In this document: positions 10,831 through 27,538 of the stretch, piece by piece | Numbering within the stretch: the stretch's first letter is position 1 | Layout of the letters: the number at the start of each line of letters is the position of its first letter | NCBI GenBank assembly: GCA_001730095.1 | Contig: MDLF01000096.1 | Span: forward strand, 124,001-188,000 | Length of the DNA stretch: 64,000 nt | From: Rhodobacteraceae bacterium (ex Bugula neritina AB1) | GTDB lineage: Bacteria; Pseudomonadota; Alphaproteobacteria; Rhodobacterales; Rhodobacteraceae | Reading direction: 5' to 3' | Made by a program: the position numbers and the translations under genes | Notes under the pieces: model-generated | Databases searched by the model: none | Told to the model about the DNA's origin: nothing | What the model saw: only the letters and a program-made list of their open reading frames with translations

Positions 10831-10848
10831 TTCTGCACTGCGGCAAAG
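10831..10848. promoter_or_regulatory. Conserved 18-bp box (TGCRYTGCGGCRAW type) between mdh and the TauE-like gene
   Basis: TTCTGCACTGCGGCAAAG is identical to the sequence at 27521-27538 before ccr, and its core matches boxes before the mcl2-like gene and ecm. It is weakly palindromic (TTCTGC-N6-GCAAAG). It is 68 bp upstream of mdh and 74 bp upstream of the divergent transporter gene. A role as binding site of an acyl-CoA-responsive regulator (RamB/ScfR/PccR type) is an inference. Confidence 0.6.
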
Positions 10849-10921
10849 GGTTTGGTATACTGATGCATGCTGAAATGATAACGCTAAAGCGCAAGGATTT
10901 TAGGGCTTTTGGGGACGCGTA

Positions 10922-11677
10922 ATGGCTGCATTTGACGCTATGTTTTTCGTTTTTGCGATCCCTGCGGTCGTTTTCGCGGGCGTCTCCAAGGGCGGTTTCG
11001 GGTCCGGCGCAGCCTTTGCCTCGGCCTCGATTCTGGCTTTGGTGATGGAGCCCGGTGCTGCCCTGGCGCTGATGCTGCCCTTGCTGATGCTGATCGATGC
11101 GGCGACGTTGAAGCCGTATTGGAGGCGCTGGAACCTGCGGGCGTCCTTGCTGCTGATCGGTGGCGGGCTGCCGGGTGTTGTACTGGGCGCTTGGCTCTAC
11201 ACTGTTGTGGATGGCGACGCGATGCGGGTGCTGATCGGGGCCGTTTCAATTGGATTTGTGCTGTGGCAGCTGAGGACACGGCTGGGGGTGACGCATGCGA
11301 CCGGCGCGCCGTTGTCCACGGGCGCGGGGGCATTGGCCGGGCTGGCAGTCGGGTTCACCAGTTTTGTCAGCCATGCAGGCGGTCCGCCTGCGGCGGTTTA
11401 TCTTCTCAGCCTCAAGTTGCGAAAAACCGAGTATCAAGCCAGCACGGTGCTGATCTTCTGGGCTATCAACATAGCTAAGGCGGTGCCTTATGCCGGGCTG
11501 GGGCTGTTCACACGCGAGACCTTGATGCTGGATCTGATGCTGGCGCCCTTTGCCCTGTTGGGTGCCTGGCTGGGGGTGAGGCTGCACCACTCGGTCCCGG
11601 AGCGCTGGTTCTTTGCGCTTGCTTATGTTCTGTTGACGGTCACGGGCTTCAAGTTGATTTGGGACGGGCTGGCATGA
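10922..11677 (+). CDS. TauE/SafE (TSUP) family permease
   Basis: A 251-residue integral membrane protein of the TSUP family, members of which are proposed to export sulfite or organosulfonates. The N-terminal segment has the family motif GVSKGGFGSGAAF near residues 20-32, and the second half has the repeated motif GFTSFVSHAGGPP; about eight hydrophobic segments are visible. It is divergent from mdh and overlaps the next gene, a GNAT acetyltransferase, by 4 bp (ATGA). It is distinct from the two tandem TSUP genes near 34-36 kb. The substrate is not known. Confidence 0.9.
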   Translation: MAAFDAMFFVFAIPAVVFAGVSKGGFGSGAAFASASILALVMEPGAALALMLPLLMLIDAATLKPYWRRWNLRASLLLIGGGLPGVVLGAWLYTVVDGDAMRVLIGAVSIGFVLWQLRTRLGVTHATGAPLSTGAGALAGLAVGFTSFVSHAGGPPAAVYLLSLKLRKTEYQASTVLIFWAINIAKAVPYAGLGLFTRETLMLDLMLAPFALLGAWLGVRLHHSVPERWFFALAYVLLTVTGFKLIWDGLA

Positions 11678-12165
11678 ACACTGAGACAGGATGCTGCCTG
11701 CGGTTGGCAAATGAGAAGGACTATGGCGGTCTTCTTTGCCTGTACCGGGAGCTGATGGGGGATATCCCGGTTTTGTCCGGCCCGAAAGGCGCCGTGGAGT
11801 TCAACCGAATTCTTGCCATGCCCGGCACATCCATCGCTGTGGCCGAGGCCGACCGGCGGGCCGTGTCAGCTGCAACATTGCATGTTATGCCCAATCTCAC
11901 GCATGGCGGGCGGCCGTATGCGCTGATCGAAAATGTCGTTACACTCCGAGCCTTCCAGGGCTGTGGGTTCGGCCGGGCCGTGATGAACTTTGCCAGAGAC
12001 CGGGCCTGGGAGATGGACGCCTACAAGATCATGCTGCTGACCGGCAAGGCGGCCGGAGTGCGGGGTTTTTATGAGCGGCTGGGCTACTCGAGCGATGATA
12101 AACACGCCATGACCTTGCGCCGCAGTCCGGCCCGCCGACCGCAGCCTGGAAACCTGCCTGAATAA
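11674..12165 (+). CDS. GNAT family N-acetyltransferase
   Basis: A 163-residue acetyl-CoA-dependent N-acetyltransferase of unknown substrate. The fold signature is visible as the acetyl-CoA loop VVTLRAFQGCGFGRAVM (R/Q-x-x-G-x-G/A pattern), followed by KIMLLTGKAAGVRGFYERLGY near the C-terminus, which is typical of GNAT motif B. The ATG at 11674 is used because it overlaps the stop of the TSUP gene (ATGA); the longer frame at 11659 would overlap more without need. The pair is probably cotranscribed and translationally coupled. Confidence 0.88.
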   Translation: MNTETGCCLRLANEKDYGGLLCLYRELMGDIPVLSGPKGAVEFNRILAMPGTSIAVAEADRRAVSAATLHVMPNLTHGGRPYALIENVVTLRAFQGCGFGRAVMNFARDRAWEMDAYKIMLLTGKAAGVRGFYERLGYSSDDKHAMTLRRSPARRPQPGNLPE

Positions 12166-12169
12166 CTGC

Positions 12170-12484
12170 TCAGGCGTCGCTGTCGGTGTTCGGCGGAGCC
12201 TCGGCAAGCACTTCATAGGATTGGCCGGAAGCCACCAGGCAGGTCATGCCGTTAGGGGTGGTGACTGTTATGGTCCAGCTGCCGGTTTCGTCCGAGGCGA
12301 AGGTTTCCATCACCATGCCCTGCTGGCCCATGCCGATGCTTTGGCGGCTTTCGCCGTATTTTTCCGCCAGCCGCTTGACCACAGCCTCACGCGGGGCACA
12401 GTTGCGGCTTTGTGCGGCGGCGGGCGCTGCCGCCATGGTGACCGCGGCCAGCGCCAGCGGCAGTGCATAGATTGAGTATTTCAT
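12170..12484 (-). CDS. Small secreted protein of unknown function
   Basis: A 104-residue protein with a clear Sec signal peptide (MKYSIYALPLALAA..., cleavage expected after the APAAAQ region near residue 25). The mature part of about 80 residues has a Cys pair (NCAPRE and MTCLV) that could form a disulfide in the periplasm. A helical KRLAEKYGESRQSIG segment and a strand-rich GSWTITVTTPNG segment follow. The family was not recognised with certainty. It is convergent with the GNAT gene, 4 bp from its stop. Confidence 0.72.
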   Translation of the reverse strand: MKYSIYALPLALAAVTMAAAPAAAQSRNCAPREAVVKRLAEKYGESRQSIGMGQQGMVMETFASDETGSWTITVTTPNGMTCLVASGQSYEVLAEAPPNTDSDA

Positions 12485-25848: not shown

Positions 25849-25932
25849 GAGCGGGCCTCGCGAGTCAGTGTGGCGGTAATTTTATTTCGTCAGGCAGATG
25901 TAAACTGCAATTTTCAACCCATGTCAATTCGC

Positions 25933-25946
25933 TGCGTTGCGGCAAT
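25933..25946. promoter_or_regulatory. TGCRYTGCGGCRAW box between ecm and the plsB-like gene
   Basis: TGCGTTGCGGCAAT matches the core of the boxes before mdh, the mcl2-like gene and ccr. It is 85 bp upstream of ecm and 73 bp upstream of the chosen plsB-like start, so it could serve either. This is the weakest of the four matches. Confidence 0.45.
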
Positions 25947-26018
25947 TCCGCTTGTGCGACGGGACGCGCGGCTGGCTTGGTGCTTGTCATGACGGTTGCT
26001 ATGCGCAACTGTTCACCC

Positions 26019-27398
26019 ATGACGCAAACCGTGGAACTGCCGCTGTGGCTTTTTGTGCTGATCGTAGGCTTTGCTGCGGTGACCTTTGCATCGCATTTCC
26101 TGTTCCCCTCGGTGCGCTGGTTCTTCCGGCGGCGGCTGGAGCGCGCGGTGGCGCGGTTGAACAAGCGGCTGGAACGCCCCATTGAGCCTTTCAAGCTGGC
26201 CCGGCGCCACGATATGATCCAACGGCTGATCCATGACCCGCAGGTGGCGCAGGCAGCAGCAGATCATGCGGCAGCAGAGGGTATTCCGGACAATGTGGCG
26301 TTTGAACAGGTGCGCCGCTATGCCCGCGAGATCGTTCCGGGGTTTTCCGCATTCGCCTATTTCGGCTTTGCCATCCGGGCAGCACGGCTGCTGTCCAATG
26401 CGGTCTATCGGGTGCGGCTGGGGCATCAGGATGAACAGGCGCTGCGGGCAATCGACCCCAATGCCACCGTGATCTTTGTGATGAACCACCGTTCCAATAT
26501 GGATTACGTGCTGGTCACTTACCTGGCCGCAAACCGCTCGGCGCTGTCTTATGCGGTGGGGGAATGGGCGCGGGTCTGGCCCCTGTCCCGTCTGATCCGG
26601 GCGATGGGCGCCTATTTCATCCGCCGCCGGTCGCGCAATGATCTCTACCGCAAGGTTCTGGCCGCCTATGTGCGCCTGGCCACCCGCGGCGGCTCCACCC
26701 AGGCGATGTTCCCCGAGGGTGGTCTTAGCCTGGATGGTGGCCTGGCGCCGCCAAAGCTTGGCCTGCTGAAATACATCGTCCAAGGGTATGATCCCGAAGG
26801 GCGCGACGTGGTCTTTGTGCCTGTGGCCCTGAATTACGACAGGGTGCTGGAAGACAAGATTCTCACGTCGGCCGCCAGAGATCCAGAGCGCCGGTTCCGT
26901 GCTCGTATCGGGCTGGTGGCCCTGCGGCTGCTGCGGCAATTGTGGCTTTGGGTGACCGGCGGCTATCACCGGTCCGGTTATGCCGGGGTGAATTTTGGCC
27001 GCCCGCTCAGCCTCGCAGGATTTGGCGCCGGAAGTGAAGGGGACATCACCAAGATGCTGGCGCAGGAGCTTATGGAAAGGATCAGCGCGATAGTGCCGGT
27101 GCTGCCCGTGCCGCTGATTGCCGCGATCTTGCTGCGGCACGGACCGCTTAGCCGGGCAGCGGTCGAACACCGCCTGAAGCAATTGGTCGCGGCAATGCCG
27201 CTGGCCTATGTCCATATCCCGCGGGACAACCTGGCCTATGCGACAGAGGCGGGGCTGCGGCAATTGCTGCGGCGGGGCCTTGTCACTGAAGCCGGCGGCA
27301 AGGTTTTGCCTGTTGAAGGCCGCCAGGAATTGCTTGCCTTTTACGCCAACTCGATCCGCCATCTGCTGCCGGACACAGGTGAATTGCCGGGCATGTAG
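26019..27398 (+). CDS. Glycerol-3-phosphate O-acyltransferase (PlsB-like)
   Basis: Membrane-associated acyltransferase making lysophosphatidate for phospholipid synthesis. In the 459-residue form, a hydrophobic anchor spans residues 8-30. The catalytic HX4D motif is NHRSNMD (His157, Asp162), and FPEGGLS near residue 236 is the substrate-binding motif. The motif spacing is that of the PlsB-type rather than PlsC acyltransferases, so glycerol 3-phosphate is the likely acceptor (inference). Earlier in-frame starts at 25977, 25989 and 26001 exist; 26019 is chosen because MTQTVELPLWL begins the recognisable anchor. It is divergent from ecm and upstream of ccr. Confidence 0.85.
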   Translation: MTQTVELPLWLFVLIVGFAAVTFASHFLFPSVRWFFRRRLERAVARLNKRLERPIEPFKLARRHDMIQRLIHDPQVAQAAADHAAAEGIPDNVAFEQVRRYAREIVPGFSAFAYFGFAIRAARLLSNAVYRVRLGHQDEQALRAIDPNATVIFVMNHRSNMDYVLVTYLAANRSALSYAVGEWARVWPLSRLIRAMGAYFIRRRSRNDLYRKVLAAYVRLATRGGSTQAMFPEGGLSLDGGLAPPKLGLLKYIVQGYDPEGRDVVFVPVALNYDRVLEDKILTSAARDPERRFRARIGLVALRLLRQLWLWVTGGYHRSGYAGVNFGRPLSLAGFGAGSEGDITKMLAQELMERISAIVPVLPVPLIAAILLRHGPLSRAAVEHRLKQLVAAMPLAYVHIPRDNLAYATEAGLRQLLRRGLVTEAGGKVLPVEGRQELLAFYANSIRHLLPDTGELPGM

Positions 27399-27520
27399 GG
27401 GCGTGTTTCTGCATGCGCCAAGGGCAATGCTGCGACTGCAGGGTCATAAAGTTACTCAAACATGCCAAAAGAGGTTGCAATATTACTTCGCCAATCCTAT
27501 CCATCAGGTAACCGCGACGA

Positions 27521-27538
27521 TTCTGCACTGCGGCAAAG
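27521..27538 (+). promoter_or_regulatory. Conserved 18-bp box upstream of ccr
   Basis: TTCTGCACTGCGGCAAAG is identical to the box at 10831-10848 near mdh. It ends 23 bp before the ccr start, between promoter and ribosome site (AGGAGG at 27551-27556). Binding here could block transcription or early elongation (inference). The gap 27399-27561 holds no gene. Confidence 0.62.

Follow-up and report, generated by a model that had tools for sequence, protein, structure and literature searches.

The window analysed here is a stretch of 64,000 nucleotides (nt) from Rhodobacteraceae bacterium (ex Bugula neritina AB1) (assembly GCA_001730095.1, contig MDLF01000096.1, positions 124,001 to 188,000 of the forward strand). 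It harbors genes of the ethylmalonyl-CoA (EMC) pathway together with the malate dehydrogenase gene mdh. Four genes of the window, namely mdh, an mcl2-like gene, ecm and ccr, are each preceded by a short box that is probably bound by the regulator PhaR, known from the control of polyhydroxybutyrate (PHB) genes. The coordinates of the genes and of the predicted operators are collected in Table 1.

Table 1. Genes and predicted operators of the window, in order of position (a dot marks features without strand).
Feature	Position	Strand	Remarks
sucB	897-2402	-	after mdh
sucA	2415-5366	-	after mdh
sucD	5794-6678	-	after mdh
sucC	8312-9544	-	after mdh
mdh, malate dehydrogenase	9801-10763	-	TIGR01763
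Predicted PhaR-type operator of mdh	10831-10845	.	TTCTGC-ACT-GCGGCA, on the mdh strand TGCCGC-AGT-GCAGAA; from sequence match, relatives and -35 spacing
Predicted PhaR-type operator of the mcl2-like gene	12748-12762	.	CGCTGC-GCT-GCGGCG; from sequence match and relatives
mcl2-like gene, HpcH/HpaI lyase	12835-13689	+	284 amino acids, the size of Mcl2
NnrU gene	13724-14272		downstream of the mcl2-like gene
mesaconyl-CoA hydratase gene	14499-15530		downstream of the mcl2-like gene
ecm, ethylmalonyl-CoA mutase	23881-25848	-	655 amino acids; methylmalonyl-CoA-mutase family, named ecm from the initial annotation and context
Predicted PhaR-type operator of ecm	25930-25944	.	CGCTGC-GTT-GCGGCA; precedes the -35-like TTGACA by 5 nt, ecm strand
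Predicted PhaR-type operator of ccr	27521-27535	.	TTCTGC-ACT-GCGGCA; follows the presumed -10; distance from core to ATG, 29 nt
ccr, crotonyl-CoA carboxylase/reductase	27562-28842	+	TIGR01751, 619.9 bits

An initial annotation, made from the letters of the window, had reported an identical 18-mer at 10831-10848 and 27521-27538 and related cores at 12751 and 25933. Both copies of the 18-mer are exact matches, and no further copy occurs in the window even if up to three mismatches are tolerated (0.07 expected; two or more copies in 1 of 100 shuffles). The core TGCRYTGCGGCRAW is found exactly at 10834, 12751, 25933 and 27524. With at most one mismatch it likewise has four occurrences in the window versus 1.16 expected, a count of four or more being reached by 3 of 100 shuffles. 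By themselves these window statistics are only moderate. A genome-wide motif search (4,671,673 bases), which had been set as a check, returned six exact matches to TGCRYTGCGGCRAW: four are the boxes of the window and the two others both lie within long open reading frames (ORFs). The reversed control pattern has no match. Neither a lack of concentration nor, as described below, a lack of conservation was found, and it is confirmed that the four boxes are genuine and concentrated in the region of the window.

The assignment of the boxes to EMC and malate genes holds for the genes as such. Their orientation is less simple, as mdh and ecm are encoded on the minus strand while the boxes were written on the plus strand, and two boxes are also faced by divergent genes, a TauE-type transporter at 10922 (mdh box) and an acyltransferase at 26019 (ecm box). 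For ccr the ATG given in Table 1 was taken as the start, overriding an upstream start proposed by the ORF caller that places the box inside the ORF.

Comparison with relatives reveals that the element is not the one-sided word described initially, it is instead an inverted repeat of the general form TTCTGC-N3-GCRGMA, centred on YGCRNYGCR. All four cores of the window match YGCRNYGCR, and the repeat is visible in relatives, for example as GATTCTGCGTCGCAGAATTTC before ccr of L020 and as TTTCTGCATCGCAGAAG before mcl2 of L249. The boxes occupy defined positions relative to promoter elements (-35 and -10) inferred from sequence. In 64 of 70 ecm loci, 5 nt separate the end of the core from TTGACA. 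Of 20 mdh promoters, own genome included, 13 have a gap of 6 nt between the core and a TTGCGC-like -35. The mcl2 box of this genome stands, by eye, upstream of a -35-like TTGAAA. At ccr, the core is placed downstream of the best -10-like match of TAT type, the distance being 19-24 nt in 58 of 77 loci (a best match per locus, without control). As a separate observation, the stretch from the mcl2 box to the start of mcl2 contains an imperfect inverted repeat, TTGTACTTGAAAGTATACAA (12766-12785), which recurs as a near copy in L252 and is absent from the other relatives as read.

Conservation was assessed in loci of related genomes: the best 80 of at least 594 relatives for ccr, 74 of which also have ecm with a usable start; the best 29 by identity of 194 matching genomes for mdh, own genome excluded; 24 of the 34 non-own genomes searched for mcl2; and the best 12 of 191 loci for phaR. 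The nearest named ccr locus among the best 80 is that of Leisingera aquimarina (96%), the remaining listed titles being mostly Rhodobacteraceae genera. The sampled sequences are kin and hence not independent. Of the 80 ccr loci, 77 have the core YGCRNYGCR within the last 75 nt before the start of ccr, compared to 708 of 11,107 control windows of equal size in the same loci (6.4%) and to 8/79, 2/78, 3/80, 2/80 and 0/80 at five placed controls. It is present at 70 of 74 ecm promoters and, among relatives, at 19 of 29 mdh promoters, and a full-score box precedes mcl2 in 19 of 24. Because of these counts, the box is considered a genuine promoter element kept across the sampled relatives, and the initial proposal of an operator-like element of EMC genes and mdh is borne out. 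We note that three Tateyamaria loci (L014, L015, L017) carry a second, tandem box adjoining the ecm box.

The genome was further scanned with a sequence model built from 74 ccr, ecm and mdh sites of relatives (75 sites were prepared, one off-position mdh row being removed by hand), none of them from its own sequence or from PHB genes. The four sites of the window rank 1, 2, 4 and 7 genome-wide, the promoter of epi (methylmalonyl-CoA epimerase) ranks third, and both boxes of the phasin gene phaP are found at ranks 24 and 29. For ccr, ecm and mdh such ranks are to be expected from homology; the training set contained no sites of mcl2, epi or phaP. Neighbouring genes were annotated for the loci among the best 30, except L161, L164 and L165. 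Matches in or near unrelated genes (a C18 transporter or rRNA methyltransferase, glutamate--tRNA ligase, prephenate dehydratase, nuoD and others) were taken as chance.

In its core, the repeat corresponds to known binding sites of PhaR; published sites are taken, here and throughout, from passages of the papers cited. The R. sphaeroides PhaR site is given as CTGCNNNGCAG and the core of the S. meliloti PhaR motif is YGCRNYGCR (PMC12542648). The B. diazoefficiens consensus is TGCRNYGCASMA, and the site listed for ppc, a promoter of weaker affinity, is TGCGCTGCGGCA (PMC6201568). The box is one base off CTGCNNNGCAG, and differs from TGCRNYGCASMA by a G that replaces A at one place: the second half of all four boxes is GCGGCR, where CTGCNNNGCAG and TGCRNYGCASMA have GCAG or GCASMA. 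Sites with a GCGG half are also found at the PhaR-responsive genes ppc and pdhA of B. diazoefficiens, with weaker shifts at both promoters (PMC6201568), and at ppa of S. meliloti (PMC12542648). The genome encodes one PhaR (TIGR01848, 147.4 bits, above cut-off; G000:C46:80038) with PHB_acc_N and PHB_acc domains, for which a PDB sequence search returned no match.

Similar boxes are present at the PHB genes of the same genome. The phaP gene (Phasin_2) is preceded by two boxes, by eye around the -35; paired sites have likewise been described for S. meliloti phaP1/P2 (PMC12542648). The phaC gene is preceded by TTCTGCATAGCAGAA, which matches CTGCN3GCAG and not YGCRNYGCR, and phaR is preceded by TGCTGCAATGCATCA, in which the core is matched and one half is weak. 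Among relatives, box pairs 26-30 nt apart are found at 7 of the 12 phaR loci, and a phasin-like ORF comes after every pair (all 3 that were tested match Phasin_2); in the other 5 no box pair is located left of phaR within the DNA examined.

The boxes at PHB genes and those at EMC genes differ systematically. Of 16 phaP boxes, 15 have two half-sites of the CTGC..GCAG type, versus 19 of 185 EMC and mdh boxes. This difference is what would be expected if PhaR bound the symmetrical phasin boxes only, and the EMC boxes were bound by another regulator with a PhaR-like word that is lost along with PHB metabolism. The mcl2 boxes of relatives are symmetrical in 6 of 19 cases at the same promoter, however, so that a second factor is unneeded, and the GCGG-half sites listed at ppc, pdhA and ppa belong to PhaR-responsive genes. 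We regard a second factor of this kind as very unlikely.

A further line of evidence are natural losses of PhaR. The search for PhaR covered 50 of the 80 ccr genomes, a selection in which the three without a ccr box were deliberately included. PhaR is present in 47 of these 50 named genomes (46 above cut-off; the remaining one has a fragment at the end of a contig). It is absent from L035, L039 and L049, and these three genomes, and no others of the 50, have no ccr box. The co-occurrence, 47 to 3, has no exception (Fisher 5e-5, kinship ignored). L035 and L039 have lost the ecm box too and keep the adjacent TGTCAA; the DNA analysed for L049 does not include ecm. Within the family, PhaR is present in 386 of the 395 genomes that are at least 95% complete. 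The nine PhaR-less genomes comprise two (G003 and G419) with a true Ccr at 83% identity, three with a Ccr homologue of 51-52% only, and four without any at 1e-60. PhaR-less genomes are thus mostly without true Ccr (7 of 9; the rate among PhaR carriers is not part of this count), which suggests a joint loss of PHB control and EMC pathway. G003 and G419 belong to one genus without PhaR, in which TTCTGCGCCACGGC replaces the ccr box. No YGCRNYGCR core exists within 150 nt before ccr in either genome, in the 160 nt before mdh in G003, or before mcl2 in G419. As the Ccr of G003 is not close to that of L035, at least two lineages of PhaR-less ccr genomes can be distinguished. The draft genome G033 (74% complete) has neither a ccr box nor a PhaR match.

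From the inverted repeat and its conservation, the placement at promoters, the fit to PhaR sites, the similar boxes at PHB genes and the loss of the box in genomes without PhaR, we infer that PhaR (PHA_reg_PhaR, TIGR01848) is the protein that binds the four boxes, with a probability of about 0.78.

Several observations weigh against this reading. The core is missing from the mdh promoter of 10 of 29 relatives, from the ecm promoter of the PhaR carriers L067 (PhaR fragment) and L070 (CTGCTATGCAG instead), and the mcl2 box is missing in 4 of 23 PhaR carriers. The PhaR-less ccr genomes amount to about two independent lineages, and the drafts G166 (71% complete) and G098 (84%) keep the ccr box without a PhaR match, a pattern as expected if PhaR is merely missing from the assembly. 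In the genome scan, 150 of 6,495 first-look candidates were scored and 68 are listed at E <=10; with so short a motif, the E-values of single sites are weak (0.09 to 1.2). Among the other EMC genes named for comparison in the initial annotation, epi has a candidate site in the scan of this genome. The mcl1 box is patchy (score of at least 5 in 11 of 35 promoters, own included). The pckA gene was rejected as a conserved member: it ranks fifth in the scan, yet a box is present in 1 of 34 pckA promoters, namely that of the present genome. Given the poor conservation of the pckA and mcl1 sites, some scan matches are therefore chance or lineage-specific, and neither gene should count as a conserved member. 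The literature, too, is silent in the parts covered. The words 'ethylmalonyl' and 'crotonyl' are absent from the main text of the B. diazoefficiens PhaR papers (PMC10888616, PMC6201568), as are 'ethylmalonyl', ccr and mdh from the main text of the S. meliloti PhaR paper (PMC12542648) and 'ccr' from the M. extorquens phaR transcriptome paper as far as accessed (PMC6520949), which records that a PhaA-like gene is up. For R. rubrum on acetate, PhaR and Ccr are both listed and the passages draw no link (PMC7109303). At the level of titles, abstract openings and passages, with subscription texts mostly outside the scope, no link of PhaR to ccr or ecm was found. Finally, deletion of ramB affects ccr in P. 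denitrificans, so that another regulator matters there, directly or not (PMC10370305).

The latter point bears on the binder proposed in the initial annotation, a regulator of the ScfR family (RamB or PccR type) that would sense CoA esters of the EMC pathway. Two ScfR proteins are indeed encoded in the genome (PF09856 at C33:35741 and C41:31308; the domains of one were confirmed). The motif TTTGCAAA, which we take to be the ScfR-type core, stands 48 nt before the scfR ATG of this genome (L145) and at none of the four promoters; its one occurrence in the window is at 55710. Similar boxes at phaP and phaC are also at odds with an ScfR-type binder. The RamB site at the P. denitrificans glyoxylate operon, upstream of the malate synthase gene, consists of two boxes with an 18-bp spacer (PMC10370305), whereas within 150 nt of ccr there is one box in 68 of 80 loci, two in 9 and none in 3. 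In the promoters with two boxes, 7 pairs are 93-112 nt apart and 2 pairs 21-22 nt. Deleting two other ScfR genes left the P. denitrificans ccr reporter unchanged, and the effect of ramB on ccr may be indirect, via the lost glyoxylate cycle (PMC10370305). With the box matching PhaR sites, having its kin at phaP, phaC and phaR, and being lost together with PhaR, the regulator named initially is probably wrong, and an ScfR-type binder is highly improbable.

The conserved sequence before ccr might also act as a leader RNA hairpin and not as a DNA operator. On the 5' side of the ccr box, the right half of the box has a complementary GCYGCGA arm, leaving a UUCUG loop (window 27505-27540; ccr leaders L009-L088, L133, L179). 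The mean stem is 5.57 compared to 3.18 with shuffled 5' arms (63 of 77 ccr leaders), pairing amounts to 75% in register versus 19-45% when slid, and in the PhaR-less genomes L035, L039, L049 and G003 the predicted fold keeps GATTCTG in a loop with different arms. On the other hand, convincing covariation was not seen in the ccr leader hairpin, the predicted fold of G419 differs, and the stem of the window itself is short. The boxes of ecm, mdh and mcl2 are situated upstream of the presumed promoters and hence would not be leader RNA. An RNA element overlapping a ccr operator is possible; as a replacement for the operator we consider it most improbable.

If PhaR is the binder, the sign of its action has to be considered. 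The position of the ccr box downstream of the -10 suits repression, and boxes before the -35 suit either sign. Because PhaR seems to activate some genes elsewhere, repression from boxes upstream of the -35 is not certain, which is a further point against the simplest form of the model. A dual PhaR that represses ccr and activates mdh, ecm and mcl2 would be in line with the rigidly kept distance between box and -35 at ecm and mdh, and with the lower expression of pdhA and pckA in a B. diazoefficiens phaR mutant (PMC6201568). The gaps of 5, 6 and (by eye) 12 nt, however, do not place these promoters in one helical phase, and an activator that acts in the absence of PHB would leave ecm and mcl2 less expressed on acetate, the condition in which both are required. 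Moreover, PhaR is proposed to repress zwf and ppa in S. meliloti, where the table rows, as read, put its sites at distances of 53 nt (zwf) and 39 nt (ppa) from the start site (PMC12542648). We therefore consider a dual PhaR unlikely, and slightly favour repression at all four promoters.

Titration of PhaR by PHB is established for the phasin genes of other alphaproteobacteria (PMC12542648), and the PhaR reading suggests a corresponding scheme for the EMC genes. Without PHB, free PhaR would occupy TTCTGC-N3-GCRGMA at ccr, ecm, mcl2 and mdh and keep these promoters low, and would also bind the similar sites at phaP, phaC and phaR. On acetate, surplus acetyl-CoA would be directed to PHB, whose granules would capture PhaR off the DNA. 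This capture would release the genes leading from acetyl-CoA to malate and oxaloacetate along with the phasin gene. A graded response, owing to weaker EMC operators, is plausible from their half-sites. Put more broadly, PHB granules might serve as an acetyl-CoA gauge of the Rhodobacteraceae, in which titration of PhaR from the weakened half-variant operators (ccr, ecm, mcl2, mdh) and from the strong symmetrical double operators of phaP opens acetyl-CoA assimilation in graded steps, and PhaR and the EMC pathway tend to be kept or lost together. We put this wider proposal forward tentatively, at somewhat less than even odds.

How acetate induces the EMC pathway in alphaproteobacteria is apparently unsettled; for its down-regulation, a 'yet unknown signal' is invoked in the RamB study of P. 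denitrificans (PMC10370305). With PhaR as the regulator, the signal would be the state of the carbon store: a polymer drawing on acetyl-CoA would govern the pathway by which acetyl-CoA is assimilated. Storage, EMC pathway and malate oxidation would then be joined in one circuit across a family that is abundant in the sea, with a bearing on engineered producers of PHB or dicarboxylic acids.

Some neighbouring features are mentioned for completeness. Gene order and strand suggest that mdh and the suc genes may form one operon. A family-25 glycosyltransferase-like gene (6691-7521) and a gene of 249 amino acids without Pfam match (7557-8306) are located between sucC and sucD. CceR and AkgR were weighed as regulators of mdh, and no motif was obtained for them. 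The pckA promoters of this genome (L153:1500-1600) and of L265-L267 share GGTTGCGCTAA, which resembles a LacI-type operator, perhaps that of CceR; L268 has TTTGCGCTAAC.

The arrangement can be compared with three known types of regulation. CcrR of Methylobacterium extorquens, a TetR-family activator of the ccr-containing operon, also regulates ccr but belongs to a protein family different from that of PhaR. The ScfR-family regulators RamB and PccR likewise control the assimilation of acetyl-CoA or propionyl-CoA in Rhodobacteraceae (PMC10370305; PMC12632250, the latter with C. sphaeroides mutants). They differ in their DNA sites, paired boxes for RamB and the TTTGCAAA core, and in their main targets, the glyoxylate cycle and propionyl-CoA carboxylase. 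The PhaR (PhaR/AniA) systems of R. sphaeroides, B. diazoefficiens and S. meliloti share with the present genome the inverted repeat with the core YGCRNYGCR, here one base off CTGCNNNGCAG, the double site at the phasin promoter and the phaR gene. The present genome differs in its predicted targets, which are mdh and genes of the EMC pathway, and in the GCGG half-site found once in most of the EMC boxes.

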